Source of the DNA: a virus
IMG/VR virus record: IMGVR_UViG_3300031974_004723
Span: 1 to 21,668 of that record
DNA length: 21,668 nt
Strand: one strand, 5' to 3'
The notes beneath the pieces are model-generated. The model did not search any database, was not told the origin of the DNA, and saw only the letters and a program-made list of their open reading frames with translations. Below, in pieces: positions 265 to 16,736 of the stretch (its first letter is position 1; each line of letters starts with the position of its first letter). Both the position numbers and the translations under genes were made by a program.

Positions 265-280
265 GATCGGTAGACTGGGG
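265..280 (+). promoter_or_regulatory. Candidate promoter element GATC-GG-TAGACT-GGGG (copy 1)
   Basis: TAGACT (271-276) fits the TAnnnT form of a bacterial -10 box and sits just after the upstream terminator, where a new promoter would be expected. The same GATC..TAGACT..GGG string recurs at 2966 and 16684. A TTGTCA at 254-259 looks like a -35 box, but the spacing is only 11 bases, so it is a poor sigma-70 pair. The -10-like box ends 6 bases before the ATG at 283, so transcription from it would start at or very near the start codon. Confidence 0.35.
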
Positions 281-282
281 CC

Positions 283-663
283 ATGAACCTTACTGAAGAC
301 TTAAACGTTTTCTTTAACAGCTCTCACTTTGCTGTGAGCTGCACAGCTGGTTCGACTACTGGTAAAGGCATCTTGGAGCAACCGTCCGAAATCATCGCGG
401 ACGGAGTTGTCTTGACCACCGACTACATGCTTACGGCCAAAGCCTCTGACTTTGGCTCGCTTGCTTATGGCTCGGGTATTGAGGTCGACGGCAACATGTA
501 TCAAGTTCGCAGTTCTCAGCTCGTCGACGACGGCTTAATCTGCAAACTATTCCTTACGAAGGTCTCGGGTCGCACGCTTACCTTGGTCGACGAAGACCTT
601 GATGGCGGCGGTCCGACTACAGACCTGAGTGGTGCTGATGTCTTCGACGCCGGCGGAGTCTGA
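283..663 (+). CDS. Head-tail connector / head completion protein (lambda FII-like)
   Basis: This 126-aa protein has the size and pattern of the lambda FII family of small head-tail joining proteins. It has an N-terminal helix (LTEDLNVFF), then short beta strands with a 'G.L..P.E' segment near residues 30-36. A 'Y.LTAKASDFG.L..G..I.V.G..Y.V' core follows at about residues 48-75, and then a strand of the LICKLFLTK type. In the family this protein caps the portal after DNA packaging and provides the docking surface for the finished tail. The C-terminal ~30 residues are a Gly/Asp-rich tail beyond the usual core. There is no Shine-Dalgarno sequence before the ATG, only GGGG two bases away. The position, first after a terminator and upstream of the tail genes, fits the call. 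The family assignment comes from pattern and order, not from a database search. Confidence 0.65.
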   Translation: MNLTEDLNVFFNSSHFAVSCTAGSTTGKGILEQPSEIIADGVVLTTDYMLTAKASDFGSLAYGSGIEVDGNMYQVRSSQLVDDGLICKLFLTKVSGRTLTLVDEDLDGGGPTTDLSGADVFDAGGV

Positions 664-665
664 CG

Positions 666-974
666 ATGGCAATTCGGATTCAAAACCGCCGTGGCACGGC
701 ATCTGAGTGGACTAACGCCAATCCCACTCTTGCTGGCGGTGAAATCGGGTTTGAGACCGACACCGGCAAATTCAAGATTGGCGACGGAAGCACCGAGTGG
801 GATGATCTCGTTTACTCGTCTACTCGAAGCGCTTTTTCCTTGGGCGACCTGAACGACGTCGTGACAACGGACAAAACCGATGGCAGCGTTCTGTATTACG
901 ACTCGTCGACGTCTACTTTCAAAGCCGATGACATAAATACAAAATTGACACTTGCGGACGGCGGTAATTTTTAG
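666..974 (+). CDS. Short Mtd-N-like fibre domain protein (stub)
   Basis: This 102-aa protein starts 2 bases after the connector stop and has a GGAG ribosome site at 655-658. Residues 1-50 (pattern I..RRGTA.EW....P.LA.GEIGFE.DTGKFKIGDG...W..L) match the small N-terminal domain found at the base of many tail fibres, including the major tropism determinant N-domain. Residues 58-92 (DLNDV, then DGSVLYYDSSTSTFKADD) match the linker motif that follows this domain in many marine phage fibres. In other phages a long fibre shaft follows, but here the protein stops at residue 102. It may be an adaptor or short neck/collar appendage, or the remnant of a longer fibre gene. Recognition of the domain is firm; the role is inference. 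Confidence 0.7.
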   Translation: MAIRIQNRRGTASEWTNANPTLAGGEIGFETDTGKFKIGDGSTEWDDLVYSSTRSAFSLGDLNDVVTTDKTDGSVLYYDSSTSTFKADDINTKLTLADGGNF

Positions 975-1024
975 GGATCAATCGTGTCAAGTTTCCCGGC
1001 TAAAGTGACGTAGGCAGATCCCTA
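972..1024. repeat. 8-bp perfect inverted repeat around an intergenic gap
   Basis: TAGGGATC at 972-979 (which includes the TAG stop codon of the upstream gene) is repeated in inverted form as GATCCCTA at 1017-1024, with 37 bases between. No T-run follows, so it does not look like a terminator. The second arm lies in GATCCCTAGGTCT, which loosely resembles the GATC..TAGACT element seen elsewhere. Confidence 0.5.
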
Positions 1025-1060
1025 GGTCTTAATTCTCAGCGCTAAGGAGGCACCACCCAG

Positions 1061-2029
1061 ATGGCCAGTACCCTTCGGATCAAGCGGCGCGCATCTGGCG
1101 ACGCCGGCGCCCCTTCGAGCTTGGCTAACGCCGAACTCGCGTTCAACGAAGTTGACGACACGCTGTATTACGGCGAAGGCACCGGCGGCGCAGGTGGCAC
1201 TGCAACTTCGATCCTTGCCATTGGTGGTTCCGGCGCATTCACCACGCTGAATACCGCTCAAACGATTAGCGGTAACAAGACTTTTACCGGCACTCTTGAT
1301 TTCAGCAGCGCAACTGTTGCAACGTTTGAGACCACCGGCAACGTCACGGTCGGCGGAAACCTTGTTGTTAATGGCACGACTTCGACCATTAACAGCACCA
1401 CGGTCTCCGTGGATGACAAAAACCTTGAACTTGGTTCTACCGCTTCCCCTTCTGACGCCACTGCTGATGGCGGCGGCATCACCCTCAAGGGTGCAACCGA
1501 CAAAACCTTCAACTGGGTCAACAACACCGATAGCTGGACTAGCTCCGAGCATCTGGATCTTGCTTCTGGCAAGGAATTCAAAATCGCTGGCACCTCTGTT
1601 CTGAGTGGCAGCACCTTGGGCTCCGGTGTTACCGGGTCCAGCCTGACCAGCGTTGGCACGATTACCAGTGGCACCTGGACCGGCAGCACTATTGCAGTCG
1701 CCAACGGCGGCACTGGTGCAACCACTGCATCCGGCGCACGCACCAGCCTTGGCTTGGTCATCGGCACCGATGTTCAGGCTCAAGATGCCGAGCTTTCGGC
1801 ATTGGCTGGTCTGACCAGCGCTGCTAACAAGCTGCCTTACTTCACCGGTTCCGGGACTGCGGACCTGGCTGATTTCAGCGCGTTTGGCCGCACTCTGGTT
1901 GACGATGCCGACGCAGGCACTGCTCGCAGCACTCTGGGACTCGGCAGTATTGCCACCCAAGCCGCCAACAATGTTTCCATTACTGGAGGCACCATCGACG
2001 GCGTGACGATCGACGGAGGAACCTACTAG
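1061..2029 (+). CDS. Fibre / virion appendage protein with cyanophage-type fibre modules
   Basis: This is a 322-aa beta-rich, Gly/Thr/Ser-rich protein. Residues 1-45 form an N-terminal docking domain ([10 protein letters not shown], then [19 protein letters not shown]), related in pattern to the one in the preceding gene. Residues ~92-167 form a module with 'GNLVVNGTT', '[10 protein letters not shown]', '[15 protein letters not shown]' and 'WVN.TD.WTS', a shaft module common in marine phage fibres. It reappears in the 818-aa protein at 16737. Residues ~195-240 carry the '[19 protein letters not shown]' repeat and the C-terminus ends in '[16 protein letters not shown]'. A strong AAGGAGG ribosome site lies at 1044-1050. 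There is no catalytic motif and no C-terminal lectin or chaperone domain. It is likely a shaft-forming appendage; its place between connector and tail terminator suggests the neck or capsid as well as the tail tip. Confidence 0.75.
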
Positions 2030-2355
2030 TGCCTGAAATCTACGGAGCGTGGGCAAGTCGTCGCGACAACATCGTGACTCTTGGCACGCTCACCGCAGTT
2101 GGAGCGACAGACGCAGTTGAGGTTTCTGGCCGCAACTTCACTTTCGCTCACGTCAGCAGTGGCTCCAACATCAGAACGATTGATGAGGGCAGCCTTGATG
2201 GCACAAACTGGTTTGCCTTAGGTGACGAGAAAACCCACGAGTCAACCGGCACTTATGGGCATCACTACCAAGACGTAATCATCAGGTTTGCCCGCAGCCG
2301 CTGTACTGCTATTGGCAGCGATGAATCTGTCGTTGTGACGATGGCCTGCGACTAA
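2029..2355 (+). CDS. Small putative virion protein, unknown function
   Basis: This 108-aa protein has a GTG start that shares one base with the upstream TAG stop (TAGTG). A GGAGGA ribosome site at 2015-2020 is ideally spaced and supports the GTG. The sequence reads as a small beta-sandwich, with alternating hydrophobic residues and an 'IDEGSLDGTNWFAL' segment at about residues 50-63. That segment resembles loops of small structural domains that describe deviation around a mean-like beta strand pair. I cannot name a family. Its tight coupling to the preceding fibre gene suggests the two proteins act together, perhaps as fibre and tip or clamp. An alternative is a small decoration protein. Confidence 0.6.
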   Translation: MPEIYGAWASRRDNIVTLGTLTAVGATDAVEVSGRNFTFAHVSSGSNIRTIDEGSLDGTNWFALGDEKTHESTGTYGHHYQDVIIRFARSRCTAIGSDESVVVTMACD

Positions 2356-2370
2356 AACCATTTGCTATGT

Positions 2371-2393
2371 CCATGCTCATAATGCGGGCATGG
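2371..2393 (+). other. Hairpin covering the start codon of the 47-aa gene
   Basis: CCATGCTC (2371-2378) pairs with GGGCATGG (2386-2393) over 8 bp with one G-U pair and a 7-base loop. The ATG at 2390-2392 lies in the 3' arm. CATAAT at 2378-2383 also resembles a -10 box. A transcript starting about 7 bases after that box would begin at the ATG and would not contain the hairpin; read-through transcripts would contain it. Confidence 0.4.
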
Positions 2394-2533
2394 ACAAGCA
2401 CACATTCAACAATTGGATAAAAGTGCGCGAAGCATTAGAGCGCGCCGGGAAGACCGATTGCTTGATTTACCGTAGAGCTGTGGCCATCACTAAGGGTGGC
2501 AAAGATCCCGGTCCCTTCGGTACGAACACCTAA
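2390..2533 (+). CDS. 47-aa small protein, probably conserved, function unknown
   Basis: An ATG at 2390 opens 47 codons ending with TAA at 2531-2533. That stop overlaps the ATG of the tail terminator by one base (TAATG). This coupling, and the fact that the frame fills an otherwise 177-base gap, support it as a real gene. The protein is basic. It has a helix-like first half (NNWIKVREALERAG) and a second half with Arg/Lys, a Gly-Gly-Lys and a Pro-Gly-Pro turn (residues 35-43). No transmembrane segment or known motif is visible. There is no Shine-Dalgarno sequence. Its place next to the tail terminator suggests a minor tail or neck assembly role, which is a guess. Confidence 0.6.
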   Translation: MDKHTFNNWIKVREALERAGKTDCLIYRRAVAITKGGKDPGPFGTNT

Positions 2534-2958
2534 TGGCTACGAAGCGCGAAGACATCCTTGCGGCGATCAAAACAGCTCTAGCCGGAACCACAGGGGTTGG
2601 GACCAGGATTTACAGAAGCCGGGTCGAGGCAGTGGCTCGTGCAGAATCGCCCGCGCTTGTTATTGAGCCTCTCACAGACAACCCAGTTCAGAACACGGCT
2701 TTGCCAACGCTGGACTGGACGCTTCGAGTACGAATTAGCGTGATTGTGCGGGGCGAAACTCCTGACAAGGTCGCGGATCCGACGATTCAAAGCCTGCATT
2801 CAAAGATCATGGCGGACCTGACTTTGGGCGGCGAAGCCATTGACGTTCAGCCGGCGCAAACAACATTCAATTTCTTTGAAGCGGACAATCCCGCAGGCGT
2901 AATTTTCTGCGAATACGACGTGCGGTACAGGACGCAAGTTGCTGATCTGACCCAATAA
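2533..2958 (+). CDS. Tail terminator / tail completion protein (lambda U-like)
   Basis: This 141-aa protein fits the tail terminator family. The N-terminal helix (REDILAAIKTALAG) is followed by a strand with 'R.YRSR.EA.AR.E.PALVIEP' at residues ~24-47. Then comes 'LDWTLRVRISVIVRG..PD..ADP' with an 'IQSLHSKIMAD.TLGG' helix at ~60-100, and finally the 'Y.VRYRT...DLT' C-terminal strand. Tail terminators form a ring on top of the tail tube, stop its growth at the length set by the tape measure, and bind the connector. Size (lambda U is 131 aa) and position directly before the tail tube gene agree. Translation is probably coupled to the 47-aa gene through the TAATG overlap, since there is no obvious ribosome site. 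Confidence 0.8.
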   Translation: MATKREDILAAIKTALAGTTGVGTRIYRSRVEAVARAESPALVIEPLTDNPVQNTALPTLDWTLRVRISVIVRGETPDKVADPTIQSLHSKIMADLTLGGEAIDVQPAQTTFNFFEADNPAGVIFCEYDVRYRTQVADLTQ

Positions 2959-2965
2959 ATCACCA

Positions 2966-2980
2966 GATCTAGACTTGGGC
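2966..2980 (+). promoter_or_regulatory. Candidate promoter element GATC-TAGACT-TGGGC (copy 2)
   Basis: TAGACT at 2970-2975 is preceded directly by GATC and followed by TGGGCC, like the copies at 265 and 16684. CTGACC at 2947-2952 is a 4-of-6 match to a -35 box at 17-base spacing. The GACTTG (2972-2977) and CAAGTC (2985-2990) arms could also form a 6-bp hairpin. The element would serve the short ORF at 3003 and the major tail tube gene, which must be strongly expressed. Confidence 0.4.
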
Positions 2981-3002
2981 CTAACAAGTCACTCGACTTA
3001 CC

Positions 3003-3242
3003 ATGACTGATGAACACCGTGGTGAAGGCGGGAGTTACCTGCTGGACCCGGAAACGGGCGAGCGCAAATTAATCAAGCGCACGTCTCCCCCAACACCATT
3101 CGAGGTAATCACTGATGGCTCTGCTACTGCGGAAACGCCTAATTCTGATCGAGACGGAGTCGACTTACGGAACGGATCCAACGCCAACCGGAACCGACGC
3201 CGTCCTCGTAAGGGATCTCAACATCACTCCTCAGCAGAGTGA
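3003..3242 (+). CDS. Short ORF overlapping the tail tube gene; N-terminal ~37 residues look real
   Basis: A 79-codon frame opens in the gap before the tail tube gene and runs 128 bases into it in a different frame. The first ~37 residues (MTDEHRGEGGSYLLDPETGE and onward) have an ordered, acidic/basic, gene-like look, with a GEGGSY..DPETG.R.L motif. The remaining ~42 residues, read from inside the tube gene, are low-complexity and very rich in Arg, Asn and Ser, as expected of an out-of-frame reading. The simplest view is a small conserved tail protein whose original stop was lost, so that it now reads into the neighbour. No Shine-Dalgarno sequence is evident. The function is unknown. Confidence 0.5.
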   Translation: MTDEHRGEGGSYLLDPETGERKLIKRTSPPTPFEVITDGSATAETPNSDRDGVDLRNGSNANRNRRRPRKGSQHHSSAE

Positions 3243-4050
3243 TGTCGTCAATCGCGATGTCGTGCGGCCTTACCTCGGCGCTTCCGAGCAATTGCTTGCC
3301 AACACTCGCGTTGAATGCACCTTCAGCGTTGAACTGACCGGTTCTGGCACTGCTGGCACGGCTCCTGCATACGGCAAAGCTCTGCAAGCTTGTGGCCTTG
3401 ACGAGACCGTTGTTGCTTCCACCAGCGTCACCTACGCACCTGTAAGCGCAAGCTTCTCCAGCGTCACCATCTACTACAACATCGATGGTTTGCGCCACAA
3501 GGTGACCGGCTGTCGCGGCACCTTCCAGATCAACGCAAACGTCGGCGAAATCCCCACCATCGATTTCACCTTCACCGGCGTTTACAACGCCCCCGATGAC
3601 AGCGCACTGCCTTCTGCGACCTTCGCAAACCAAGCCACCCCGCTGATCTTTAAAAACGGCAACACCAGCAGCTTCCAGTTGCTGTCCTACGCAGGTTGCC
3701 TGCAGTCATTCAGCTTCGACATTGGCAACACCCTTGTGTACCGGGATCTCATCGGTTGCGACAAGGAAGTTCTGATTACTGACCGTGCAGCCACCGGCAG
3801 CACCACCATCGAAGCAGTGAGCATCGCAACGAAGGACTACTTTGCTGCTGCTCTGACCGACACGAGCCTGGGCAACCTGGACTTCACCCACGGCACCACC
3901 GCCGGCAACATCGTGGACTTCGCCTCCACCCGTGTTGACATTGGCGATGTGTCCTACGGTGACCAAGATGGCATTGCCATGTTCAACATCCCCTATACCT
4001 GCGTGCCCAGCACCAGTGGGAATGATGAATTCAGCCTGGCATATACCTAA
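3115..4050 (+). CDS. Major tail tube protein
   Basis: This 311-aa beta-rich protein has a recognisable tube-protein start: ALLLRKRLILIETESTYGTD, then PTPTGTDAVLVRDLNITP at residues ~20-40. Strands with 'NTRVECTFSVELTGSGTAG' follow at ~62-80. A second half has 'LQSFSFDIGN...RDLIG.DKEVLITDR' at ~199-225 and an 'FNIPYTC.P' C-terminal strand. It polymerises as stacked rings to form the tail tube. The two halves look similar in layout (N-terminal 'NITP...V.RD..RP' and central 'FSFDIGNTLVYRDLIG'), consistent with a duplicated fold. GAGGT at about 3100 gives a good ribosome site for the ATG. It lies between tail terminator and chaperone genes, as V does in lambda, and is followed by a strong terminator. 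Confidence 0.88.
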   Translation: MALLLRKRLILIETESTYGTDPTPTGTDAVLVRDLNITPQQSDVVNRDVVRPYLGASEQLLANTRVECTFSVELTGSGTAGTAPAYGKALQACGLDETVVASTSVTYAPVSASFSSVTIYYNIDGLRHKVTGCRGTFQINANVGEIPTIDFTFTGVYNAPDDSALPSATFANQATPLIFKNGNTSSFQLLSYAGCLQSFSFDIGNTLVYRDLIGCDKEVLITDRAATGSTTIEAVSIATKDYFAAALTDTSLGNLDFTHGTTAGNIVDFASTRVDIGDVSYGDQDGIAMFNIPYTCVPSTSGNDEFSLAYT

Positions 4051-4076
4051 ACTAAGCTGACCCCACACCACACCTT

Positions 4077-4100
4077 GGGCCGCCAATGCGGCCCTTTTTT
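4077..4100 (+). terminator. Strong Rho-independent terminator after the tail tube gene
   Basis: GGGCCGC (4077-4083) pairs perfectly with GCGGCCC (4088-4094) around a CAAT loop and is followed by six T residues (4095-4100). It begins 27 bases after the tail tube stop codon. It would reduce read-through into the chaperone and tape-measure genes, which are needed in far fewer copies than the tube protein. Confidence 0.95.
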
Positions 4101-4137
4101 GTGGCTGTAATATGGAGTCGAACTACTACTCGTTTTT

Positions 4138-4470
4138 ATGGCGTTCGTTCGCAAGAAGGTAAAGACCTTTAAGTGGCCCGTGACTGTCATGGAGCCCAGC
4201 AGCGAGAAGCCTGGAGAGTTTGAGGAGTCAAGCTTTACTGCGATTTTCAAGCGTGTGAAGATGTCCCAGCTTGAGGAGATGGCGGAAAGCGGCGGGACGA
4301 GCCTTCTCAATAAGGTGCTTGTCGGCTGGGAGGGAATTGAAGACGAAGACGGTTCGGAGCTGAAATTCTCCAAGTCCGCGCTTGAAGAGTTTGCCGATGA
4401 TGCTGACTGGACGCGCGCAGTTTTGAGCGCATATACCGCTACCTACGCAGAGGCAGAAGCAAAAAACTAA
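4138..4470 (+). CDS. Tail assembly chaperone, short form (G-like)
   Basis: This 110-aa protein is rich in Lys and Glu, with an N-terminal beta part (VKTFKWPVTVMEPS, EESSFTAIFKRV) and a helical second half (FSKSALEEFADDADWTRAVLSAYTATYAEAEAKN). This is the usual layout of the upstream tail chaperone encoded just before the tape measure. In lambda the equivalent gpG coats the tape measure and recruits tube subunits; it is absent from the mature virion. The reading frame ends in A AAA AAC followed by TAA, a classical -1 slippery site, so a fraction of ribosomes should make the longer GT form. The ATG lacks a well-placed ribosome site. The gene sits 38 bases after the terminator, so expression may rely on partial read-through or on a weak promoter around 4106-4113 (TGTAATAT). 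Confidence 0.85.
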   Translation: MAFVRKKVKTFKWPVTVMEPSSEKPGEFEESSFTAIFKRVKMSQLEEMAESGGTSLLNKVLVGWEGIEDEDGSELKFSKSALEEFADDADWTRAVLSAYTATYAEAEAKN

Positions 4471-4820
4471 GAGAAGCTGCGATTTATTGGGCTTCTGGCG
4501 GCGAAACCGTCGAAGACAAAACCCAAGAAGACGCAGCTGTTTTAGGCATACAGATACCGAAACCAAAGCCAAAAGAGCCAAGCCATTTCGAGGTTTGGGA
4601 CGAAAACTGGCCTGCAGTAGAGATGTTTCTACGCATGCAGACGCAGTGGAACGTCTCAATGACTGGCTTGGTTGGCTTGAAGTACGAAGTACTTGTTTGT
4701 TCTGGAGGCTTGTTTGACCTCTACAATGTGGAGGATCGAACGGATGTGCTTGAGCGTCTTCAGGTCATGGAGGCGACGGCCTTGACCGAACTGAGGAAGC
4801 GCTCTGATGGCTCAAGTTGA
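4138..4820 (+). CDS. Tail assembly chaperone, -1 frameshift fusion (GT-like)
   Basis: Slipping back one base at 4461-4467 lets the ribosome continue with CTA AGA GAA from 4467, avoiding the TAA at 4468-4470. The new frame is open to the stop at 4818-4820 and adds 117 residues, giving a 227-aa fusion. The extension begins LREAAIYWASGGE and contains 'HFEVWDENWPAVEMFLRMQT', a motif typical of the downstream (T) part of siphophage tail chaperones. It ends 'LERLQVMEATALTELRKRS'. The T frame has no credible start or ribosome site before the slippery site; its first Met, at 4623, lies inside the conserved W-rich motif. This supports expression by frameshift only. Known role: the T part binds tail tube subunits and G binds the tape measure. 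The fusion overlaps the tape-measure start by 14 bases. Confidence 0.88.
4461..4467 (+). other. Programmed -1 ribosomal frameshift site (A AAA AAC)
   Basis: The heptamer fits X XXY YYZ in the zero frame of the G-like gene, one codon before its TAA. Both tRNAs can re-pair on AAA AAA after the slip. A possible stimulatory stem, AGAAGC (4472-4477) with GCTTCT (4491-4496) and a 13-base loop, begins 4 bases downstream. GCTGCG (4476-4481) could instead pair with CGCAGC (about 4531-4536). The site is supported by the recognisable T-type coding sequence in the -1 frame. Confidence 0.9.
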
Positions 4821-7575
4821 AGATCTAAAGATCCTTCTCAAGGTCCAAGACGCCGGCGGCACGCAGGTCATTGAGAAGCTTCAAAATTCACTGAGAGGCT
4901 TGCAGAGGGCGGCCAACAAGGCCAGCACCTCAGGTATCGACGTTGTTGCACAAAGCGTTCGCAGCTTTGACACGTCCGGCAAGAAAAATATTGAAACTCT
5001 TCGGACTCAAATAACCGCAATGAAGGCCCTGCGGGAGCAGGCAATCATTGGCAGCTCGCAGTTCAAGACGTTAACGGCTGATATCAACAAGTATTCGGCA
5101 GCGCTTAATAAGGCTGAAGGCGCAAGACCCGGAGGCGGAAGGCTTGCAGGCTTAGCTAAGGGTGCTGGAGCTATTGCGGCAGGTGGTGTTTTTGGTGGAC
5201 CGGAAGGCGCAATCGGCGGCGCAGCTGGTTTGGCACTTGGTGGTGCTCCCGGGGCAGCAGTGGGTGCCGCGATTGGCGCTCAAGTTGGAATGTTTCGCCA
5301 ACAGCTTGGCGGATTAGCTGAATATTCCGCTGATTTGGCAAAGCAGCGATTGGCGCTGCAACTGGTAACCAAAGACGCTGACCAGTATCAGCGTGCATTG
5401 AATTTTATTGCCACTACTAGCAAGGACCTGGCAATACCTCAAGACATCCTTACTCGTCAATTCACGAAATTATCCGCATCTGTCCTTGGCGCTGGTGGAA
5501 ACGTTCAAGATGCAGAGAAAGCGTTCATTGGTGTCGCATCAGGCATTAGAGGCACCGGAGGAAGCCTGCAGGATCTTGAGTCAGCCCTGATCGCAACATC
5601 TCAGGTCTTCAGTAAAGGCAAGGTCTCTGCTGAGGAGCTGCGCCAGCAAATCGGCGAAAGACTGCCTGGTGCTTTCACGCTATTTGCTGAATCGCTGGAC
5701 ATGACTCCGGCGCAGCTTGATAAAGCGCTTGAGAAGGGTCAAGTAAGTCTTCAAGACTTCCAGACTTTCGCTGAAAAGCTCTTTAAGGAATACGGGGTTT
5801 CTGCACAAGTATTGGCAGATAGCCCTATGGCAGCGGGCGACAGGTTGACAACGGCTCTGGCCGGCCTGTCTGACACTGTTGGCAGCTTGCTCGCTCCAAT
5901 TGGCGCAGCTTTTCAGTCGACTTTTGCCGATATTGCCAATGCAATTAATGGCGCAGCAAAAGCGTTTATAGACTTTTTTGGCCTTACAAAGGCTGGGCAA
6001 ATGTCCCGGCTAACTCAACGGATTGGCGTAACAGTAGAAAGGCTCACTGCATTTGACGAGCGAAGGAAAAAACTTGTAGAGCGAGGAGTTGATACAACCG
6101 TCTTAGATTCTCAGATTAAAAACTTTAGGGATCGGCTGAACAAGCTCACCGATGAATACTATTCACTGCAAAAAATTGAAACGGCAATAGCAGCCGGCCA
6201 AGGGACAGCCCCAAGGCCAGGACTCCCTAGTGGTGGTGACGCAACTGGCGGTGGAGCGCAAACAAAGCGAGCACCGCTTTCTGAAAAGCTGGTCAGCCTC
6301 ACAAATGCTTTGGCTGAGAAGACGGGCAAGGTTGAGGAGCAAGAGCTTGCCACCTTGCGTTACATGATTGCAAGGCAGAAAATTCTTGACAACAATCTTC
6401 TGCCTGCAACCAACAAGGAAATAGCCCTGAATCAAGCCTTGGCTGCATTCCGAAAAGAAATCGGAAGAATCAAGGAGCGCGAAGAAAAAACTGCTGCCAA
6501 GCTTCAAAAGGATCAAGCAGCTGCCGCGAAAAAGCAGGGAAATTTAGAGAGAGAGCTAAACAAGCAGCTTCAAGAACGCAAGCATCAGCTTGGACTAATT
6601 ACCGACGAAGAGTATAAACAGTATTTGATCGCGGCAGAGCGCGAGCGCTTAAAAGCTGAGTTTCCCGGCGAGGCATTTGCAGGCAAGCGCGCCGAAGCGG
6701 AAGAGCTGTACCGCCGAGAAGTTGACCCCACTTTCAGGGAGGCCGGCGAAACCCAAGTGTCCAAGATGAAGGACGACTTGAAGGAAATGCTGAAGCCAAT
6801 TAATCAGCTGAAAGAAGGCGCGATGGCATTCGGCGAAGCTTTTAGCTCAGCCTTTACGAACGTTGTCACTGGCGCTCAGACCGCTCAGCAGGCGATGGCC
6901 TCGTTCCTCAAGAACTTGGGCCAGTACTTCATTGAGTACGCCGCCAAACTGATCACTCAGATGATCGCTATTGCCACCATCCAAGCCGTAATTAAGGCAT
7001 TGGGTGGGCCGAGCACAGGCGACGCCGCTGGAGCCAAGCCTCCTCTTCCCGGCAGTGTTGGCACCATTGCCGCTCAAGGCGCCGTTATGGATAAAGGCGT
7101 CAAGCGCTACGCCATGGGTGGCGTGGTCAACAAGCCGACCATGTTCACCTACGCCGAGGGCGGCACCGGTCGCTTCGGCCTGATGGGTGAGGCTGGCCCG
7201 GAGGCGATCATTCCGCTGAAGCGCGGCAACGACGGCCGGTTGGGCGTCTCGGCTTACTTCTCTGACGCCAATGCCGCGATGGCAAAGAGCGCTTCTAACC
7301 GCAGCTCTTCTGCCGCTTTTGAGGAGAACGCCGATGCTCTGGCGATGAGCACTAGCTACGTCCGGGAGCGCAGCCAAGAGCGCGAGCGCCAGACGATGCT
7401 TACCGGTGCCGGCGGCTCGATGTTGATTCAGACTCAGGTAATCAACAACGTCGAATACGCGACGATGGATCAGGTCGCTCAGGCCACCGCAGCAAGCGCC
7501 AAGCAAGCACGGGCTCAGGTCTTTGCCGACATCCGCAACAAGCCGGCTACTCGCTCCTCCTTGGGTATGCGCTGA
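4807..7575 (+). CDS. Tail tape measure protein
   Basis: This 922-aa protein is the longest of the tail core genes before the tip and sits directly after the chaperones. Residues 1-105 are helical and polar. Residues ~109-163 are a Gly/Ala-rich hydrophobic stretch that could insert into a membrane. Residues ~185-350 match the tape-measure N-terminal family core, with 'LAIPQDILTRQFTKL', 'EELRQQIGERLPGAF' and 'LADSPMAAGDRLTTAL'. Residues ~510-650 are charged, probably coiled coil. The C-terminus carries the lambda-type motif 'YAMGGVVNKPTMF' (~768-780) and 'GLMGEAGPEAIIPLKRG' (~792-808). It sets tail length and is ejected with the DNA. At about 0.15 nm per residue the tail would be near 140 nm, which is an estimate. 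GAGGAAG (4793-4799) gives a well-spaced ribosome site. I see no peptidase motif in it. Confidence 0.93.
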   Translation: MAQVEDLKILLKVQDAGGTQVIEKLQNSLRGLQRAANKASTSGIDVVAQSVRSFDTSGKKNIETLRTQITAMKALREQAIIGSSQFKTLTADINKYSAALNKAEGARPGGGRLAGLAKGAGAIAAGGVFGGPEGAIGGAAGLALGGAPGAAVGAAIGAQVGMFRQQLGGLAEYSADLAKQRLALQLVTKDADQYQRALNFIATTSKDLAIPQDILTRQFTKLSASVLGAGGNVQDAEKAFIGVASGIRGTGGSLQDLESALIATSQVFSKGKVSAEELRQQIGERLPGAFTLFAESLDMTPAQLDKALEKGQVSLQDFQTFAEKLFKEYGVSAQVLADSPMAAGDRLTTALAGLSDTVGSLLAPIGAAFQSTFADIANAINGAAKAFIDFFGLTKAGQMSRLTQRIGVTVERLTAFDERRKKLVERGVDTTVLDSQIKNFRDRLNKLTDEYYSLQKIETAIAAGQGTAPRPGLPSGGDATGGGAQTKRAPLSEKLVSLTNALAEKTGKVEEQELATLRYMIARQKILDNNLLPATNKEIALNQALAAFRKEIGRIKEREEKTAAKLQKDQAAAAKKQGNLERELNKQLQERKHQLGLITDEEYKQYLIAAERERLKAEFPGEAFAGKRAEAEELYRREVDPTFREAGETQVSKMKDDLKEMLKPINQLKEGAMAFGEAFSSAFTNVVTGAQTAQQAMASFLKNLGQYFIEYAAKLITQMIAIATIQAVIKALGGPSTGDAAGAKPPLPGSVGTIAAQGAVMDKGVKRYAMGGVVNKPTMFTYAEGGTGRFGLMGEAGPEAIIPLKRGNDGRLGVSAYFSDANAAMAKSASNRSSSAAFEENADALAMSTSYVRERSQERERQTMLTGAGGSMLIQTQVINNVEYATMDQVAQATAASAKQARAQVFADIRNKPATRSSLGMR

Positions 7576-8045
7576 TGACGATTGCAATCGGCACCTACAT
7601 CCGCCTTCTTAACGCCAACGGGAGCGATACCGGCTATCGCTTCCAAAACTTTTTTAAGGGCGACACTCGCACCTACGACTCCCTTACTTACACGTTCTCC
7701 GGCTTTGGATTTAGCGGTGGCACGCTTGACCTTGAAGGCGGCAACATCAGCGCCAGCCTTGTCGTAGCGCTCAACCAATTGAGCTTGGCTGTCTATACCC
7801 AAGCGGTAACTGATCGTTGGCTAATCAAACTGCGCACAGTTTGGCTCGACCCCGACACGCTTACCGAGGGCACCACGTATAGCGAAGAGCTGTATGCAGT
7901 GACCGGCTTGGAACATGACAGCTCCAGGCTCTCGGTACGATTAGGTAGCCCCCTAGATGCGGTTCGTGAGCACGCCCCACGGCGTTCATTGACCCAGCAG
8001 CTGGTCGGCTCACTGCCCACTACTGGAGAAATATCACTGCGATGA
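7575..8045 (+). CDS. Minor tail / tail-tip protein (lambda L N-terminal-domain-like)
   Basis: This 156-aa protein overlaps the tape-measure stop by one base (TGATG). Its order resembles the N-terminal domain of lambda gpL. It has an opening strand with 'F.G....YDSLTYTFSGFGFSGG.LDLEGGN' at residues ~28-58, and hydrophobic strands 'LVVALNQLSLAV'. A 'LIKLRTVWLDPDTL..GTTYSEELYAV' segment follows at ~84-108, and then 'SRLSVRLGSPLDAVREHAPRRSLTQQLVG', the 'PLD....PRR' motif seen in this group. The cysteine-rich iron-sulfur C-terminal domain of lambda L is absent. Such proteins lie at the junction of tube and tip complex. Placement between tape measure and J-like gene agrees. An alternative is a general distal-tail-type protein. 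Confidence 0.55.
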   Translation: MTIAIGTYIRLLNANGSDTGYRFQNFFKGDTRTYDSLTYTFSGFGFSGGTLDLEGGNISASLVVALNQLSLAVYTQAVTDRWLIKLRTVWLDPDTLTEGTTYSEELYAVTGLEHDSSRLSVRLGSPLDAVREHAPRRSLTQQLVGSLPTTGEISLR

Positions 8046-11000: not shown

Positions 11001-11224
11001 AACTGCAGATCACCAACGGCAAAACCTCCAAGTCCAACGGCGTCTTCTGCATCAAAAACAGCACCACCGACGCCCAGACCTACAAGACGCAGTCGATCAC
11101 ATTCGACCAAGACGGGAACATCGAAGTCGAGGCCACTTATTTTCCGACCGACTCCAGCGGATTTAGCCTGTTAACAAAGGGCTGGAACGAGTCCAACAAC
11201 TGGGTCATCGAGGGCACGTTATGA
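8042..11224 (+). CDS. Tail tip attachment / central fibre protein (lambda J-like)
   Basis: This 1060-aa protein starts within an ATGA overlap with the preceding gene. Residues ~49-75 form one strong hydrophobic segment (DALILYLVIGAALSYGATLL) followed by MPKPKTPQ, which is unusual for a J-type N-terminus. Residues ~110-300 contain 'GSVVPIVYANRQTIDGVSYG', a motif of J-like proteins where the hub begins. Residues ~700-800 contain 'NFPDVLYDLMTNKRYGVGK', 'VDLASFNEASTWTYRRRYFF' and 'RNGKFALQP', the conserved J core. The C-terminal 250 residues are beta strands. It likely forms the trimeric hub at the tail end. No fibronectin III repeat or receptor-binding C-terminus is evident, so host binding is probably delegated to the large downstream proteins. 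No separate NlpC/P60 (K) or I gene is seen beside it. Confidence 0.8.
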   Translation: MTLSPKGAEHIVLLPQDREIMEITGLSESEYRQFVRELKRYSKIEPGTIVNIGIDALILYLVIGAALSYGATLLMPKPKTPQQANVTTNTVQGQNIVNGARYTPKAGFDSVQNVVELGSVVPIVYANRQTIDGVSYGGFRVNTNLLWSQIYSVGGGQLLRSMFLVSEGSVAELDPTQFAIGNNLINNYDLAITDHGRISIYYRPDGGRLTAADHIAGQLPANDVGNAENDGGTDVFQVRGVDDAFAPDFCFVSTPSNQTTFGVHNFIGNNFGFKVNPVFRPAVVLQPDQNNYVRCPNDWQAQAQRDKQNVTFAGRAGIVGTEGLTPLAVGDTITYTIYASTDNARTFTQTNPNGADGEETCGDVAQSVAGRQRNYDEAISLGEQYRVGSAVAICTGRTEAAFVSEVDNSGAGGSQAITATFEVVRAGQVDVYSQATIEGDGGKNATNGSHIHKFAEAVFSTDREARVVEVGLRSNIQLQISGLANFRDAHSYTRCDNEACFDYNGQNANNIEAIVFQSGTYSSPDTRYSFFRVAYRVAGTDDAFTDLEQLFGVRSATGVALYNYLRFEFPTASRWEVRLTPVSGWEVRNNIAAGDLEVLDPHINSIRTVTSGDVTVRFTGVSVSRNTGTFSVPSLSSPDGVSLGPQFDDGTFYADEYARLAESFIYNEVTSSASQPEHQVVYVNTISENPSTPNYDNMAIVGVNIRSSTEISRLDQFSVYVNQGIGGTSNFPDVLYDLMTNKRYGVGKVLNAEQVDLASFNEASTWTYRRRYFFDGAISERINIRSWGAKVANDYLLDLVVRNGKFALQPVATFGGPETISGLFTAGNILEDTLEFAYADVQDRLPIKVSVKWRQEKESSNTVSRGLFPVVREVTVRETGVDENAPLEQIDLSDYCTSQAHAIDRAKWELRSRRYTTHSIKFTTTPSEASLDIGSVFKLGIETVTYNQPANGAIADDGTVTSWPELADGTYTVLFWDGTTSDVEQIQLQITNGKTSKSNGVFCIKNSTTDAQTYKTQSITFDQDGNIEVEATYFPTDSSGFSLLTKGWNESNNWVIEGTL

Positions 11225-11601
11225 GCGTCTCTTTTCCTGCGCTTTCACCGACTACTCGGACATTTACGCCAGGCGCCTACGCCACCAAAAAATTCAATGC
11301 CGTCAATGGTGCCAGCCAGACTCGTCTGTATGGCAGCAAAGCATTCGATGCAGAGTTGCAGCTCGACTTTGTGACCAGCGACTCAGACACCGCTTCGCTA
11401 CTGGCGAGTTGGCACAATTCCAAGGGAGGCGCGTACACCCTGACGCTGCCATCCGAAGTTTTTACCGGTGTTGCCCAAGATCTCAAAGATCAGGTCCCGA
11501 CTTACTTAAACTGGCGCTGGGCTGAGATGCCCTCGGTCGAATCGCTCTTTCCTGGACGGTCTAGGGTGAAAGTACGACTCGTAGCTACTTTGGACGCCTG
11601 A
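11221..11601 (+). CDS. Small minor tail protein, tip-associated
   Basis: This 126-aa protein overlaps the J-like stop by four bases (ATGA) and has GAGGG (11210-11214) as ribosome site. It begins 'SFPALSPTTRTFTPGAYATK', then 'NGASQTRLYGSKAFDAELQL' at ~28-48 and 'SLLASWHNSKGGAYTLTLPS' at ~59-78. It ends in 'RSRVKVRLVATL', a final strand that reads like lambda M-type or other minor tail proteins ('PSVESLFPGRSRVKVRL'). I recognise this pattern as a recurrent small tail protein next to J-like genes in marine siphophages but cannot give it a firm family name. It most likely sits in the tail tip. Co-translation with the hub suggests a stoichiometric partner. Confidence 0.6.
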   Translation: MSVSFPALSPTTRTFTPGAYATKKFNAVNGASQTRLYGSKAFDAELQLDFVTSDSDTASLLASWHNSKGGAYTLTLPSEVFTGVAQDLKDQVPTYLNWRWAEMPSVESLFPGRSRVKVRLVATLDA

Positions 11602-11602
11602 A

Positions 11603-11995
11603 ATGGTCTTAACTGGAGCTGACGGCCAACTTAAGTACCAAGGCACAGTTGTCGGCAAGGTCCGTGACTGGAGCATCACCGTAACCAAGGATGCCCTTGA
11701 GGACACTTCGATCGGCTCGTACGATCGCACCTACATCGGCGGCCTGCGTGGCACGACCGGTAGCGCCACTGTTTTATACGACCCCGACAATTATCAGGCG
11801 ACTGTTTTTCTGAACTCGATCTTCAACAACACTGAAGATGTTGAGCAGGTGAACTTTGTGTTCAACCGCCTTGATAACAAGTCGTTTGCTTGCACGGGTT
11901 TCGTTACGAGCGTTAGCCCCAGCATCAGCGTCGGCAGCGTCCAGGCAGTGAGCGTCAGCTTCCAAGTTTCTGGCAAGCCCGTTGGAGAGTTCTAA
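11603..11995 (+). CDS. Tail-tube-like minor tail protein
   Basis: This 130-aa protein has the strand order of small tail tube subunits. An N-terminal hairpin (GADGQLKYQGTVVGKVRDWS) is followed by 'ITVTKDALEDTSIGSYDRTY' and 'GLRGTTGSATVLYDP'. A helix with 'ATVFLNSIFNN' comes next, and the closing strands are 'VQAVSVSFQVSGKPVGEF'. The pattern of a strand leading into 'D.LEDTS.G..DR.Y..GL.G..GSA' is characteristic of phage tube proteins. The true tube gene is already present at 3115, so this is a second tube-like protein placed in the tip cluster. It could form a specialised ring between tube and hub. It begins one base after the previous stop, with only a weak ribosome site, so coupling is likely. 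Confidence 0.6.
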   Translation: MVLTGADGQLKYQGTVVGKVRDWSITVTKDALEDTSIGSYDRTYIGGLRGTTGSATVLYDPDNYQATVFLNSIFNNTEDVEQVNFVFNRLDNKSFACTGFVTSVSPSISVGSVQAVSVSFQVSGKPVGEF

Positions 11996-13143
11996 TGGCC
12001 GTTCTTGGGATCGGTGGAAGGCTTTACCTAAAGCGTGAAGCACCCGAAGCTTGCGTTATCAGCTCGTTAACGGTCACCTCGGACGACTCCCTGTTGACCT
12101 ACTGCCCTGGTTACTGGACCGGGGACAAGGTCACGACGTCATGCCTTCCCACCGGTGGCGGCAACTTCCCGCCAAATCCTGACGGCTATGGCACGTATTA
12201 CGGAAGCCGCTATTTCCAAGGCCCCAACCGCACTCAAATCAACGGCACCAACGACACCTTTTACAAAACATCCTCCGAGGAGTACCCGACAGGCGAGGCG
12301 GGCAATGATTCGCAGTTTTACTCCCGCGTAGGCGACGTATCCAACTCCGAAACCCTGGTCGCTTGTGGCGACGGCGAATACTGGATCCACGTTGACGAGC
12401 TTGGTGCGATCAGCTTTTACACCTCACGCGCCAACGCACTTGAAGGTGACCCCGCCGATCGAGTCAACCTGTTTCAAACCATCTATGGCGTGATTGGCCT
12501 CGCCCCCTTCGGCAGCGCCAATTACAACAACGCTTTCTGGCGTTGCGTCACTGAGGTCAACGATTACACCGCCGGCGACGTCCAAGACATCACGTCGCTG
12601 GCATCGATCTGTGCTGACGCCCCGGATTACGAAAGCCCGGCATTTGACTCTGACGAGTACGAAAACGCCAACGTTTTGCCCCGCAGCACTACTGCCGGTC
12701 AGACCGCTCCTTACTGGCAGCTCATTTGCGACGTTGCCAACTGGTCGTTGGAGCTGTCCGCTCCAAGCGTCGACACCACTTCACTTAGCGAGAAGTTCGG
12801 CGAGGCCGTCAAATCGCTTGTCACTGGTGGTGGCTCCGCTGAGTTCCTGATCGACCGCAAGTCCCACACCGACGAGCAGGACAGTGGCACGACCATGATG
12901 AAGCTGCTGCTGATGACGGAGAAGGGCTGCAAAGCGTCCGCCCGTTTCTACTTGGTCAATCGCGGCGGTGGAGTCCAAGGTTCATCGGGCCAGCTGCCCG
13001 GAGACCTGTATTACTCCAGCGAATTGCTAGTCACCAACAGCGCAGTTAACGTGCGCCCAACAGAGATCATCGCTGGTACGGCGAACTTCGTTACTACGGG
13101 CGAGATTAAACTGCTAGAAGCAACTGACACTGTGATCCTGTGA
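11995..13143 (+). CDS. Two-domain tail protein with tube-like C-terminal domain, Cys-rich N-part
   Basis: This 382-aa protein starts in a TAATG overlap, with GGAGAG at 11984-11989. Residues 1-235 are polar, Tyr/Asn/Gly-rich and hold six Cys residues (for example in EACVISS, YCPGYW, SCLPT and VACGDGE). I recognise no domain there. Residues ~240-380 resemble the preceding tube-like protein: 'WSLELSAPSVDTTSLSEKFG' aligns by eye with 'WSITVTKDALEDTSIGSYDR', and both continue to 'L..G.GSA..L.D'. The rest includes 'MMKLLLMTEKGCKASARFYL' and 'PTEIIAGTANFVTTGEIKL'. It is probably a tip or baseplate ring with an added outward domain. The C-terminal overlap with the next gene (GTGA) keeps it in the tip operon. 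The function is inferred from fold pattern and position only. Confidence 0.6.
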   Translation: MAVLGIGGRLYLKREAPEACVISSLTVTSDDSLLTYCPGYWTGDKVTTSCLPTGGGNFPPNPDGYGTYYGSRYFQGPNRTQINGTNDTFYKTSSEEYPTGEAGNDSQFYSRVGDVSNSETLVACGDGEYWIHVDELGAISFYTSRANALEGDPADRVNLFQTIYGVIGLAPFGSANYNNAFWRCVTEVNDYTAGDVQDITSLASICADAPDYESPAFDSDEYENANVLPRSTTAGQTAPYWQLICDVANWSLELSAPSVDTTSLSEKFGEAVKSLVTGGGSAEFLIDRKSHTDEQDSGTTMMKLLLMTEKGCKASARFYLVNRGGGVQGSSGQLPGDLYYSSELLVTNSAVNVRPTEIIAGTANFVTTGEIKLLEATDTVIL

Positions 13144-16100
13144 CCAAAATCACTCGTGCCGGTCAAACCGGCTCCTCAGGACACATTGATGTCCCGCAAT
13201 CGGGCTTTCGGGCTCAAATCGACGCGCTGACCGATGCGATTCGTCAGCTGGGCGGCAACGCGGAAATTACAAGTGGTTCGACTGTTGTTAATGATCCGCT
13301 GAGTGCGCAATACGTTCTTTATGTAAACCCGCAGATCGGTAACGATACTTTTGTATCTGGCGATTATTCCAGCACTGACGACGGTACTCAGAGCCAAAAG
13401 CTGCGTCGCATCAGCCTGCAGCGTCTGGAGTGTGGATATACCGAAGCTCGTCCTTTTAAGACGATCAACCGTGCCGTCATTGAAGCGGCAATCATTACCA
13501 GCCGCAGCTTTTTAGACCCCGCTGCTGGCGACGATCTGGTTTCGATCGTTTTGGCTCCAGGCGTTCATACCGTTTACAACGGCCTGGGCACCGCAACTCC
13601 TGACGACTGGAGCGATGGCTTTGTTCCGACCGCAGCCCAGCTTCAGCAATACAACGACAACACCGCCGGCGGCCTGATCCTGCCCCGTGGCGCGTCTCTG
13701 ATTAGCGCCGACCTGCGCAAGACGCTGATTCGTCCTGACTACGTTCCATCCCCGACCGACGAAGCCGCCAACTACAGCAACCGTGGTGCAATCTTCCGGG
13801 TTACCGGCGGTGGTTATTACTTTGGCTATACATTCCTAGATAAGGCGGGATCAACCACCAGCCACCACTTGCTGGACTGCTTCCAGTTCACCAGCGAAAC
13901 TCAGCTTGACGCCTTCTACGCCAAGGTTTACGCCAAACTTGGCACGCTCGGCGGTCTAAGCCAAGTCAACACTGATAGCCGCGAAGTTGAATACCAGATC
14001 ACTGGTCCTCAACCTGCAACTGCAGCCGCATCTGTTGACACCGTAAGCAGCGCAAGCCCTTACATCTACAACTGCTCAAACCGGTCTACTTACGGTTTGT
14101 GCGGCATTTTTGCTGATGGTTCTGCCGCCCAGGGCTTCAAGTCCATGGTGGTGGCTCAGTACACCGGCGTGTCCCTTCAAAAGGACATGGACGCTTGGGA
14201 GAAATACGACAGCGGCAGCTGGACCGGGGTTACCGACTACGCCGACTACATCTCCCAAGATCCCGACAACGTGCGAATGAAGCCGACCTGGCGTTCATTC
14301 CACATCCGGGCTGTCAACGACGCCGTCATTCAAGAGGTCAGCGTTTTTGCGATTGGCCAAGGCATTCACCACTGGGTGGAAAGCGGCGGCGAACTGACCG
14401 TCACCAACAGCAACTCCAACTTCGGTGGTTGTGCAGCTCTCGCCGAGGGCTACAAAACTGCGGCCTTTACTGCCGACTCCGATTGGACCGTCAATCGCCT
14501 GCGGGTTGCCACCAACCTGACCGAAAAGACGGGCAACATTAAAAAGATTGTCCTGGGCACCGTTGCTAGCAGCACCAGCAACACCGCCACGACCATCACG
14601 CTGAACCTCGACCTTGAGGCCGGCACCTACGACTCCGAAAACCCTCGGGTACTGGAGCGCCTCAATTACAGCCTGTTTGAGGACTCCTACCTCTGGATTG
14701 AAAACAGCCGTTCCAACGATTACCGGGCTCAGCTGGCTGCAACCGCTTGGTCATCCAGCAACCCCAACCAAATCGTCGTCAAAGCTGCCTTTGTTAATGA
14801 GGACGGCACCGCCCCTGGCGACAATGTTCTGGACAGCCAAAACCAAGACACGGGAATTGATTATCCCGATCTGGCTGGCGCCAACGTTTACATCCGCCGT
14901 CTGCAGGACACTCGGACCACTTCCGAGCGTCGCTTCGCACTGCTCGGCGCCAACACCAGCGCTGCTGCTCGCACCCCGCTGCGTGACTACATCCTGCAGA
15001 CCAACACCGGTGCAGGTCACATTGACGCTCTGATCGGCAACGACGCCTTGATTGGCGTTGGCACGTCTGCTGCGGTTACCGACGCTGCCGGCAACAACGC
15101 TTTGGTCGAGCTGCGCCGGCTCAACCCCACCAACACTTGGACTGCCGACACCTACTACCGCGCTGGTGATGTTGTCCGCAACAACAACAAGCACTACAGC
15201 TGCATTCTTGAGAACAGCGACTCCACGTTCGATGTTTCTAAGTGGAGCGAAGCCTATGTCCACATGGAGGAGGCTTACAACGCTGAGGACTATTTCAAGA
15301 ACACCCAGCCGACGATCTACTTCGACAACGACACAGACGGCGCGGTTGCTTCAACAACTCTCGGCTACAACCTGACCACCGTCTGGTCTAGTGATGCTCG
15401 GGTTCGCGCCCAGTACCGCTCTGCCACTGACTACAAAGGTCTGCACTCCCTGCTGACCAGTCTCGGCTTCAGCGCTGCCAACGCTCACACAATTTTGCTG
15501 CCCAAGACTGCAGCTAATCGTGACCGCAACCCCAGCAGCGCACTGGACAGCATCGCTAATCCGAGTGGTGCAGCCAACGCTTGGGCGAACTGGTCGATCG
15601 AATTCCGCCGTCCGTCGAACATCCGACTGTTTGGCCACGCCTACGAGTGGGCCGGCTACCTCAACTACTCCAAGTCGCTGCCTAAATACCAGCGGGATCT
15701 GGGTACTACCAACAAATTCACCTACTACTTCACCAACCAAGATGCTGGTCGTGTTTACGGCAGCGGTTTTAACGAAGAAGGTTTCTTGGTTACGCCGCAG
15801 GGTGTCCAAGACCTGAGCACTGGCGAAACCTCAAGTTTTGACTCTCTTGGTGGCTCGCAGCCCACCGACGAGATCGAGTTCCCCACCTTCTACGACGCCC
15901 TCAGCGTTAACAACCACACGATCAACACCGAGCTAATTATCAACGGCACGGTTACCGGCAACCCCACTTGGGACGGCGGCTTTGGCGGCGTGCTTCCCGA
16001 GCTGCCCGAAGCCAACGAAACCACCCAAGGCATCGTCGAGCTGGCGACTCAAACCGAAACCCAAGCGCTGGCGTCAAACTCGCTGGCCGTCTCACCGTTC

Positions 16101-16685
16101 GGTCTGTCCAGCGCACTGACCGACCTTCAAACCACCATCGTCAACTCAATCACCAACCAGCTGGTTCCAACTGGCACGGTGATTCACGTTGCTGGTGCAA
16201 CTGCCCCGGCTGGCTGGCTGATCGCTAACGGCGATACCGTTCCAAACGGCAACGGCACGGTCCAAGGCGTAACCGCCAACTTCTCCGCCCTGTTCGCCGC
16301 ACTTGGCACGACCTACGGTGGCGCGGGCGTTCTGCCCGACCTGCGCGGTCAATTCATTCGTAGCTGGAACTCCGGCGCCAACGGCGATGGTGCAACGTCA
16401 GCACTTGATACGGGCCGCGTTCGCGGTTCCGATCAGGACGACGCAACCGCACGTCCGACGACCGCATTTACCGGAACAACCAACACCGCTGGAAACCACA
16501 ACCACACCTGGGGCGGTATCGGCGGAAGCGGTGGCAACAACGCTGCATTCGGTCAAGGTTACGCGGTCACGAACAACAACACGAGCAGCGCAGGCGAGCA
16601 CAACCACACCTGCACAATCAACGGCGGTGGTGATGCAGAAACTCGCCCGAACAACGTTGCATTGCTTGCTGTGATTAAGTACTGA
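13140..16685 (+). CDS. Large tail fibre: beta-helix-like shaft, carbohydrate-binding insert, collar tip
   Basis: This 1181-aa protein starts at GTG inside a GTGA overlap. Residues ~55-560 are rich in short strands and Gly/Asn turns, with 'YVLYVNPQIGNDTF', 'EARPFKTINRAVIEAA' and 'VSIVLAPGVHTVYNG'. This looks like the entry to a pectate-lyase-type right-handed beta-helix. Residues ~662-706 ('W.ADTYYRAGDVVRNNNKHY', then C and a final W) match a CBM5/12-like chitin/sugar-binding module. Residues ~1010-1075 are a phage tail collar domain (PTGTVIHVAGATAPAGWLIA, then LPDLRGQFIRSW). Two His-x-His motifs follow, at ~1120 (NHNHTW) and ~1154 (EHNHTC), like the metal-binding sites of T4-type fibre tips. 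It is probably the main host-recognition fibre, and a glycan-binding or -cleaving activity is possible. No catalytic acid pair could be assigned. Confidence 0.8.
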   Translation: MTKITRAGQTGSSGHIDVPQSGFRAQIDALTDAIRQLGGNAEITSGSTVVNDPLSAQYVLYVNPQIGNDTFVSGDYSSTDDGTQSQKLRRISLQRLECGYTEARPFKTINRAVIEAAIITSRSFLDPAAGDDLVSIVLAPGVHTVYNGLGTATPDDWSDGFVPTAAQLQQYNDNTAGGLILPRGASLISADLRKTLIRPDYVPSPTDEAANYSNRGAIFRVTGGGYYFGYTFLDKAGSTTSHHLLDCFQFTSETQLDAFYAKVYAKLGTLGGLSQVNTDSREVEYQITGPQPATAAASVDTVSSASPYIYNCSNRSTYGLCGIFADGSAAQGFKSMVVAQYTGVSLQKDMDAWEKYDSGSWTGVTDYADYISQDPDNVRMKPTWRSFHIRAVNDAVIQEVSVFAIGQGIHHWVESGGELTVTNSNSNFGGCAALAEGYKTAAFTADSDWTVNRLRVATNLTEKTGNIKKIVLGTVASSTSNTATTITLNLDLEAGTYDSENPRVLERLNYSLFEDSYLWIENSRSNDYRAQLAATAWSSSNPNQIVVKAAFVNEDGTAPGDNVLDSQNQDTGIDYPDLAGANVYIRRLQDTRTTSERRFALLGANTSAAARTPLRDYILQTNTGAGHIDALIGNDALIGVGTSAAVTDAAGNNALVELRRLNPTNTWTADTYYRAGDVVRNNNKHYSCILENSDSTFDVSKWSEAYVHMEEAYNAEDYFKNTQPTIYFDNDTDGAVASTTLGYNLTTVWSSDARVRAQYRSATDYKGLHSLLTSLGFSAANAHTILLPKTAANRDRNPSSALDSIANPSGAANAWANWSIEFRRPSNIRLFGHAYEWAGYLNYSKSLPKYQRDLGTTNKFTYYFTNQDAGRVYGSGFNEEGFLVTPQGVQDLSTGETSSFDSLGGSQPTDEIEFPTFYDALSVNNHTINTELIINGTVTGNPTWDGGFGGVLPELPEANETTQGIVELATQTETQALASNSLAVSPFGLSSALTDLQTTIVNSITNQLVPTGTVIHVAGATAPAGWLIANGDTVPNGNGTVQGVTANFSALFAALGTTYGGAGVLPDLRGQFIRSWNSGANGDGATSALDTGRVRGSDQDDATARPTTAFTGTTNTAGNHNHTWGGIGGSGGNNAAFGQGYAVTNNNTSSAGEHNHTCTINGGGDAETRPNNVALLAVIKY

Positions 16686-16700
16686 TCGCTAGACTCAGGG
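16684..16700 (+). promoter_or_regulatory. Candidate promoter element GATC-GC-TAGACT-CAGGG (copy 3)
   Basis: The element begins inside the TGA stop of the upstream fibre gene. TAGACT (16690-16695) is the -10-like box, and TTGCTG at 16666-16671 lies 18 bases upstream as a weak -35 candidate inside the coding region. It matches the copies at 265 and 2966. It would drive the 818-aa and 808-aa host-recognition genes. Confidence 0.4.
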
Positions 16701-16736
16701 CACCTCTGAATAGGGGTGTCCTCCGGCTAGATAGCC
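16697..16736 (+). other. Two adjacent hairpins in the leader of the 818-aa fibre gene
   Basis: AGGGCACCTC (16697-16706) pairs with GGGGTGTCCT (16713-16722) over 10 bp with two G-U pairs and a 6-base loop. GGCTA (16725-16729) and TAGCC (16732-16736) form a second small inverted repeat ending at the base before the ATG. There is no T-run after the first stem, so it is at best a weak terminator. The pair may affect mRNA stability or access to the start codon. No Shine-Dalgarno sequence is visible. Confidence 0.5.

Follow-up and report, generated by a model that had tools for sequence, protein, structure and literature searches.

Conserved TAnnnT boxes as probable -10-only late promoters in the tail and fibre gene cluster of a cyanosiphovirus

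Described late promoters and the phage under study

The timing and dosage of late gene expression in cyanosiphoviruses are, to our knowledge, poorly understood. The late promoters of T4-type phages carry the sequence TATAAATA and are served by gp55, gp33 and gp45; they share with the sites described here a -10-like element devoid of a -35 box in late genes, but their sequence differs (here TAGRCT), and the long relatives of the present phage have no detected sigma-70 region 2. Cyanobacterial type 2 promoters, which have a -10 hexamer only (PMC2758279), are comparable in combining a TAnnnT -10 box with no recognisable -35 box, and the phage studied here has a probable cyanobacterial host. These host promoters differ in having an activator site, such as the NtcA site GTA-N8-TAC (PMC2758279), none of which is visibly conserved at the phage sites. 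Among cyanophages, the available portion of the report on Microcystis phage Ma-LMM01 describes late promoters that resemble the host SigA motif and not a phage-specific one, which is the likeness of interest here (PMC5780444). Ma-LMM01 is however a myovirus, its early promoters have -35 and -10 motifs with a late motif reported as similar, and that portion of the report describes no terminator-adjacent or leaderless layout (PMC5780444). Likewise, the accessible sections of the reports on P-SS2 and on S-CBS1, S-CBS3 and S-LBS1 mention predicted sigma-70 promoters, rho-independent terminators and phage-encoded sigma factors (PMC2784084, PMC6157547), the promoters of P-SS2 (sigma-70) and S-LBS1 differing in that they were predicted there with general programs.

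The window, i.e. the whole stretch of DNA that was analysed, corresponds to a 21,668-base virus record, a fragment with tail and fibre genes: a tail terminator (2533), the tail-tube gene (3115), a tape-measure protein (4807), a central tail protein (8042) and fibres (13140, 16737 and 19193). It is a 21.7-kb piece of a cyanosiphovirus that has S-CBS1, S-CBS3 and S-LBS1 among its relatives. The tail-tube gene has as nearest named phages the Synechococcus phages S-CBS1 (61%), S-LBS1 (50%) and S-CBS3 (41%), and the relative, in L025, of the gene that follows site 1 (see below) matches, among named phages, only these same three. Since the nearest named phages are Synechococcus phages, the host would be Synechococcus-like, most likely Synechococcus or Cyanobium. 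No integrated cyanobacterial copies were found in the genome contig collection. The two best matches in that collection (L211 and L212) are binned as Hyphomonadaceae and Maricaulis; the phage gene order is present in both, with 36% GC in L212, and they look like misbinned viral contigs of the same phage group.

Conservation of the repeated element

The original prediction described an element with three copies, in which TAGACT is flanked by GATC and GGG. Indeed, the pattern GATCn0-3TAGACTn0-3GGG matches the window at 265-280 (site 1), 2966-2979 (site 2) and 16684-16700 (site 3), in all cases on the + (coding) strand and within gaps. Shuffles of the window gave 0.01 expected matches against the 3 observed, a figure that overstates the significance because the pattern was drawn up with the sequence already in view; the fair test of the element is its conservation and not the shuffle figure. 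TAGACT alone occurs 4 times in the window, 3 times in gaps and once inside the tape-measure gene (5969), for an expected 4.9. Such a count, not above expectation, together with a pattern picked after the fact, would suit a chance repeat of a common word in the A+T-richer gaps, whose conservation reflects recent descent only. The core TAGRCT, counted on both strands of seven related contigs, occurs 16 times in 12.8 kb of gap and 17 times in 153.7 kb of gene, amounting to an approximately ninefold higher density per strand in gaps, with some contigs overlapping and the G+C content being lower in gaps. The reversed control word was mildly enriched in gaps too (1.17 per kb on both strands vs 0.40 plus 0.55 in genes).

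We have thus relied on the upstream regions of orthologs, comprising 80 tail-tube loci, 18 and 80 site 1 loci and 80 fibre loci, a set that is one lineage and whose rows are therefore not independent. At site 1, the box TAGACT (271-276, + strand) precedes a gene at 283-663 (+ strand; PHROG 24448), whose homologs support the ATG as start. TAnnnT lies at exactly -12 from the ATG in 13 of 51 dereplicated loci, every other offset being found 3 times at most. A closer comparison of 12 rows shows invariance at T-12, A-11 and T-7 only, GATC being present in 1/12 and GGG in 2/12; as possession of the box was the criterion for choosing these rows, the offset count is the fairer argument. Around three quarters of the dereplicated site 1 loci have no box at -12, and these belong mostly to phages of more distant kinship, whose ATG comes directly after the terminator or the upstream stop codon.

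At site 2 (box TAGACT, 2970-2975, + strand) the rows were picked through the conserved sequence that lies downstream, irrespective of the box, and among 13 dereplicated haplotypes T-12, A-11, T-7 and also G-4 are invariant, the boxes reading TAGACT, TAGGCT, TAGCCT, TAAACT and TAGAGT. Taking sites 1 and 2, the information content reaches 2.0 bits at T-12, A-11 and T-7, and at site 2 also at G-4. No box was found at site 2 in one related group (L063, L064, L069, L072-L074 and L077), nor in S-LBS1 and S-CBS3. As for site 3 (box TAGACT, 16690-16695, + strand), the orthologs have TAGACT, TACAAT or TAGAAT, so that TAnAnT is kept, in fibre genes at 29-96% amino acid identity. A box retained down to 29% protein identity, an offset peak at -12 in site 1 and the invariance of exactly T-12, A-11 and T-7 amid variable gaps argue against a chance repeat, an explanation that we regard as highly improbable.

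The flanks behave differently from the box. GATC and GGG, assumed in the original prediction to be part of the element, are not kept in relatives and are free to vary while T-12, A-11 and T-7 stay constant; at site 2 GATC is present in 1/13 haplotypes, only in copies almost identical to the window. The shared flanks are therefore coincidental, and at 16684 the GATC overlaps the TGA stop codon (16683-16685) of the preceding gene. GATC-TAGACT-GGG is thereby ruled out as a single unit, and the proposal of a phage-specific promoter or regulator site, as drawn from these flanks, loses its support, as they differ freely among close relatives. The corrected motif unit is TAnnnT, and GATC and GGG should be left out of searches. 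A fourth, looser copy had been proposed at 1017 (1017-1029, GATCCCTAGGTCT), which we reject as the same element, as there is no TAnnnT at the aligned position and the orthologs read GATCCCTAGGAC; the neighbouring TAAAGT (1001-1006), which three orthologs retain, offers no more than a weak alternative. The conserved gap at 1001-1060 comprises this TAAAGT, GATCCCTAGG and an AAGGAGG ribosome site, and the word CCTAGG is conserved.

A word common to three sites in one genome could also be the operator of a phage regulator, and at site 2 it forms the near-palindrome TAGACTTrGGyCTA, whose outer TAG...CTA is conserved. However, the inner positions show no palindromic covariation (TAGGCTTAGACCTA, TAGCCTTAGGCCTA), for which reason a palindromic operator at site 2 was rejected, sites 1 and 3 have the TAnnnT half only, and a fixed 12-nt spacing to the ATG is a property of promoters. 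We thus consider an operator highly improbable.

Terminators, promoter class and polymerase

Two intrinsic terminators, each a G+C-rich hairpin followed by a T-run, lie in the window. The one at 222-252 is strong (+ strand; 11-bp stem with 8 G-C pairs, then TTTTT), lies just 5' of site 1 and is kept in orthologs; the one at 4077-4100 (+ strand) lies 3' of the tail-tube gene. Past the T-run of the latter by 7 nt we noted a further -10 box, TAATAT (TGTAATAT; 4108-4113, + strand), overlooked in the original prediction, with a predicted start at about 4120 and an ATG at 4138. At this position nearly all terminator-bearing orthologs have TAnnnT, in the forms TAAGAT, TAAGCT, TATAGT, TATGAT, TATGCT and TATTGT. 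Equally overlooked was a probable box, CATAAT (2378-2383, + strand), 6 nt ahead of the ATG (2390) of a conserved 47-aa ORF; CATAATG is kept in all orthologs seen and sits within a partly conserved inverted repeat.

Considering 53 dereplicated terminators of the family, drawn from no more than a few gene boundaries that are independent of one another, TAnnnT starts 19 times in the first 8 nt past the T-run, against 0-9 times in later 8-nt bins. Boxes right after terminators are found in the window (site 1 and 4108) and in contig G006. The isolates S-CBS1 (TAGAGT) and S-CBS3 (TAGGCT/TAGAGT) have them as well, 3' of terminators ending at 7366 and 7591; these isolates share the terminator-then-TAGAGT layout but have it at a gene boundary other than sites 1 to 3. 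As the layout is also present in these cultured phages, it is amenable to laboratory tests. In G006 (L095 10775) an extra terminator and TAGGCT stand ahead of a gene that seems to have been inserted between those for the tail tube and the chaperone, and this insert looks like a self-contained transcription unit, or moron.

Conservation, the position after terminators and the fixed spacing to the ATG lend strong support to the earlier proposal that TAGACT is a -10 box of the TAnnnT form, placed where transcription units start. In respect to promoter class, T-12, A-11 and T-7 are conserved above the flanks, as in sigma-70-type -10 boxes, TAGRCT being a weak match to TATAAT. The -35 box TTGACA, searched at 15-19 nt spacing, had a best match of 2-4 of 6 positions at 23 sites, with a mean of 3.17 vs 2.77 in shuffled sequences (P 0.015, from related rows). 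An extended -10 TGn was present in 0/23 sites, and TG without the spacer in 4. The boxes (TAGRCT, TAATAT and CATAAT) do not correspond to the T4-type TATAAATA, and in comparison with type 2 promoters they have the -10 and lack the -35, an activator site being not visibly conserved. These results suggest that the element, of the form TAnnnT and in most cases TAGRCT, is very probably the -10 box of sigma-70-type late promoters that have no clear -35 box and are used by host-type RNA polymerase. This enzyme would most likely act with the primary sigma factor of the host or with one of group 2 type.

An alternative is that these are phage-specific late promoters, dependent either on a phage-encoded group 2 sigma factor resembling that of S-CBS1 or on a phage activator that works with the host polymerase. 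A phage sigma factor is conceivable because S-CBS1, S-CBS3, S-LBS1 and KBS-S-2A carry one, S-CBS1 and S-CBS3 show TAGAGT or TAGGCT past a terminator, and the absence of a -35 box would suit an auxiliary factor; moreover, the phage's own sigma gene may sit outside the window, as this is a fragment. Nevertheless, sigma-70 region 2 was not detected in G010 (39.6 kb) and seven other long relatives (G006, G016, G015, G018, G021, G027 and G029), contigs that are not necessarily complete, and Pfam gave no transcription factor among the twenty G010 ORFs outside the tail region. In addition, the motif fits the general -10 rule and no further conserved word is found upstream. The motif itself shows no sign of a phage sigma factor and such a phage-specific factor is not needed; we consider this alternative possible but rather unlikely.

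Predicted transcripts and neighbouring genes

Under the favoured reading, that of -10-only promoters used by host-type polymerase, the boxes would start new transcription units within the late tail and fibre cluster. At site 1 and at 4108, as the box follows an intrinsic terminator, transcription would be cut and then restarted at the same spot. Because the site 1 box spans -12 to -7, the first transcribed base should be the A of the ATG, at 283, yielding a leaderless mRNA. The ATG itself appears to be the true start, since in S-CBS1, S-CBS3 and S-LBS1 the gene begins in a TGATG overlap with no gap. Leaderless transcripts have been reported for Synechococcus elongatus UTEX 2973 (PMC6091082) and are considered likely in Prochlorococcus MED4 (PMC5607370).

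At site 2 the predicted start is at about 2982-2983. This copy had been described as preceding the tail-tube gene; it does not do so directly, as a conserved 79-codon ORF (3003-3242), with its ATG at 3003, starts in between. The ORF, with the motif GEGGSYLLDPETGER, runs in another frame into the beginning of the tail-tube gene, and its first half is kept in nearly all related loci inspected.

At site 3 the predicted start is the A at 16702, and the transcript would begin with a short hairpin, a stem-loop (GGGCACCTC/GGGGTGTCC; 16698-16721, + strand) that spans the predicted start and whose core begins at +1/+2. In nine related rows 88.8% of cells are paired, two-sided changes number 10 vs 2.9 in shuffles, and the covariation is 0.395 vs at most 0.284 for slid versions. 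The stem-loop thus accompanies the box, with arms that change together, in fibre genes whose protein identity falls as low as 29%. The single-sequence folding energy of the leader is not better than that of shuffles, so the argument for the hairpin is the covariation within these nine related rows. It is plausible that the 5' hairpin shields the mRNA, to which the folding energy by itself adds no support; Rfam returned no match.

These sites make up a concrete set of putative promoters for which start bases are predicted; one of the transcripts would be leaderless, and the order of terminator, then promoter, recurs. One could envisage that terminator and -10-only box form one device, in which the polymerase stays on the DNA at the T-run and restarts at a box 3 to 18 nt downstream; this would produce in one place a leaderless mRNA, and each block of structural genes would be dosed without a full promoter. 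We find this very unlikely, and nothing in the data demands a new mechanism.

Two other features of the cluster were observed. The segment 4471-4806, which separates the tape-measure gene from a tail-assembly-chaperone-like gene (4138-4470), has no clear gene of its own, and is possibly read through a programmed frameshift, by analogy with lambda G/GT. Within a fibre gene, 47 bases (17729-17775) have 96% identity to the Synechococcus podoviruses S-RIP2 and KBS-P-1A, a likeness which suggests a recent swap of fibre parts.
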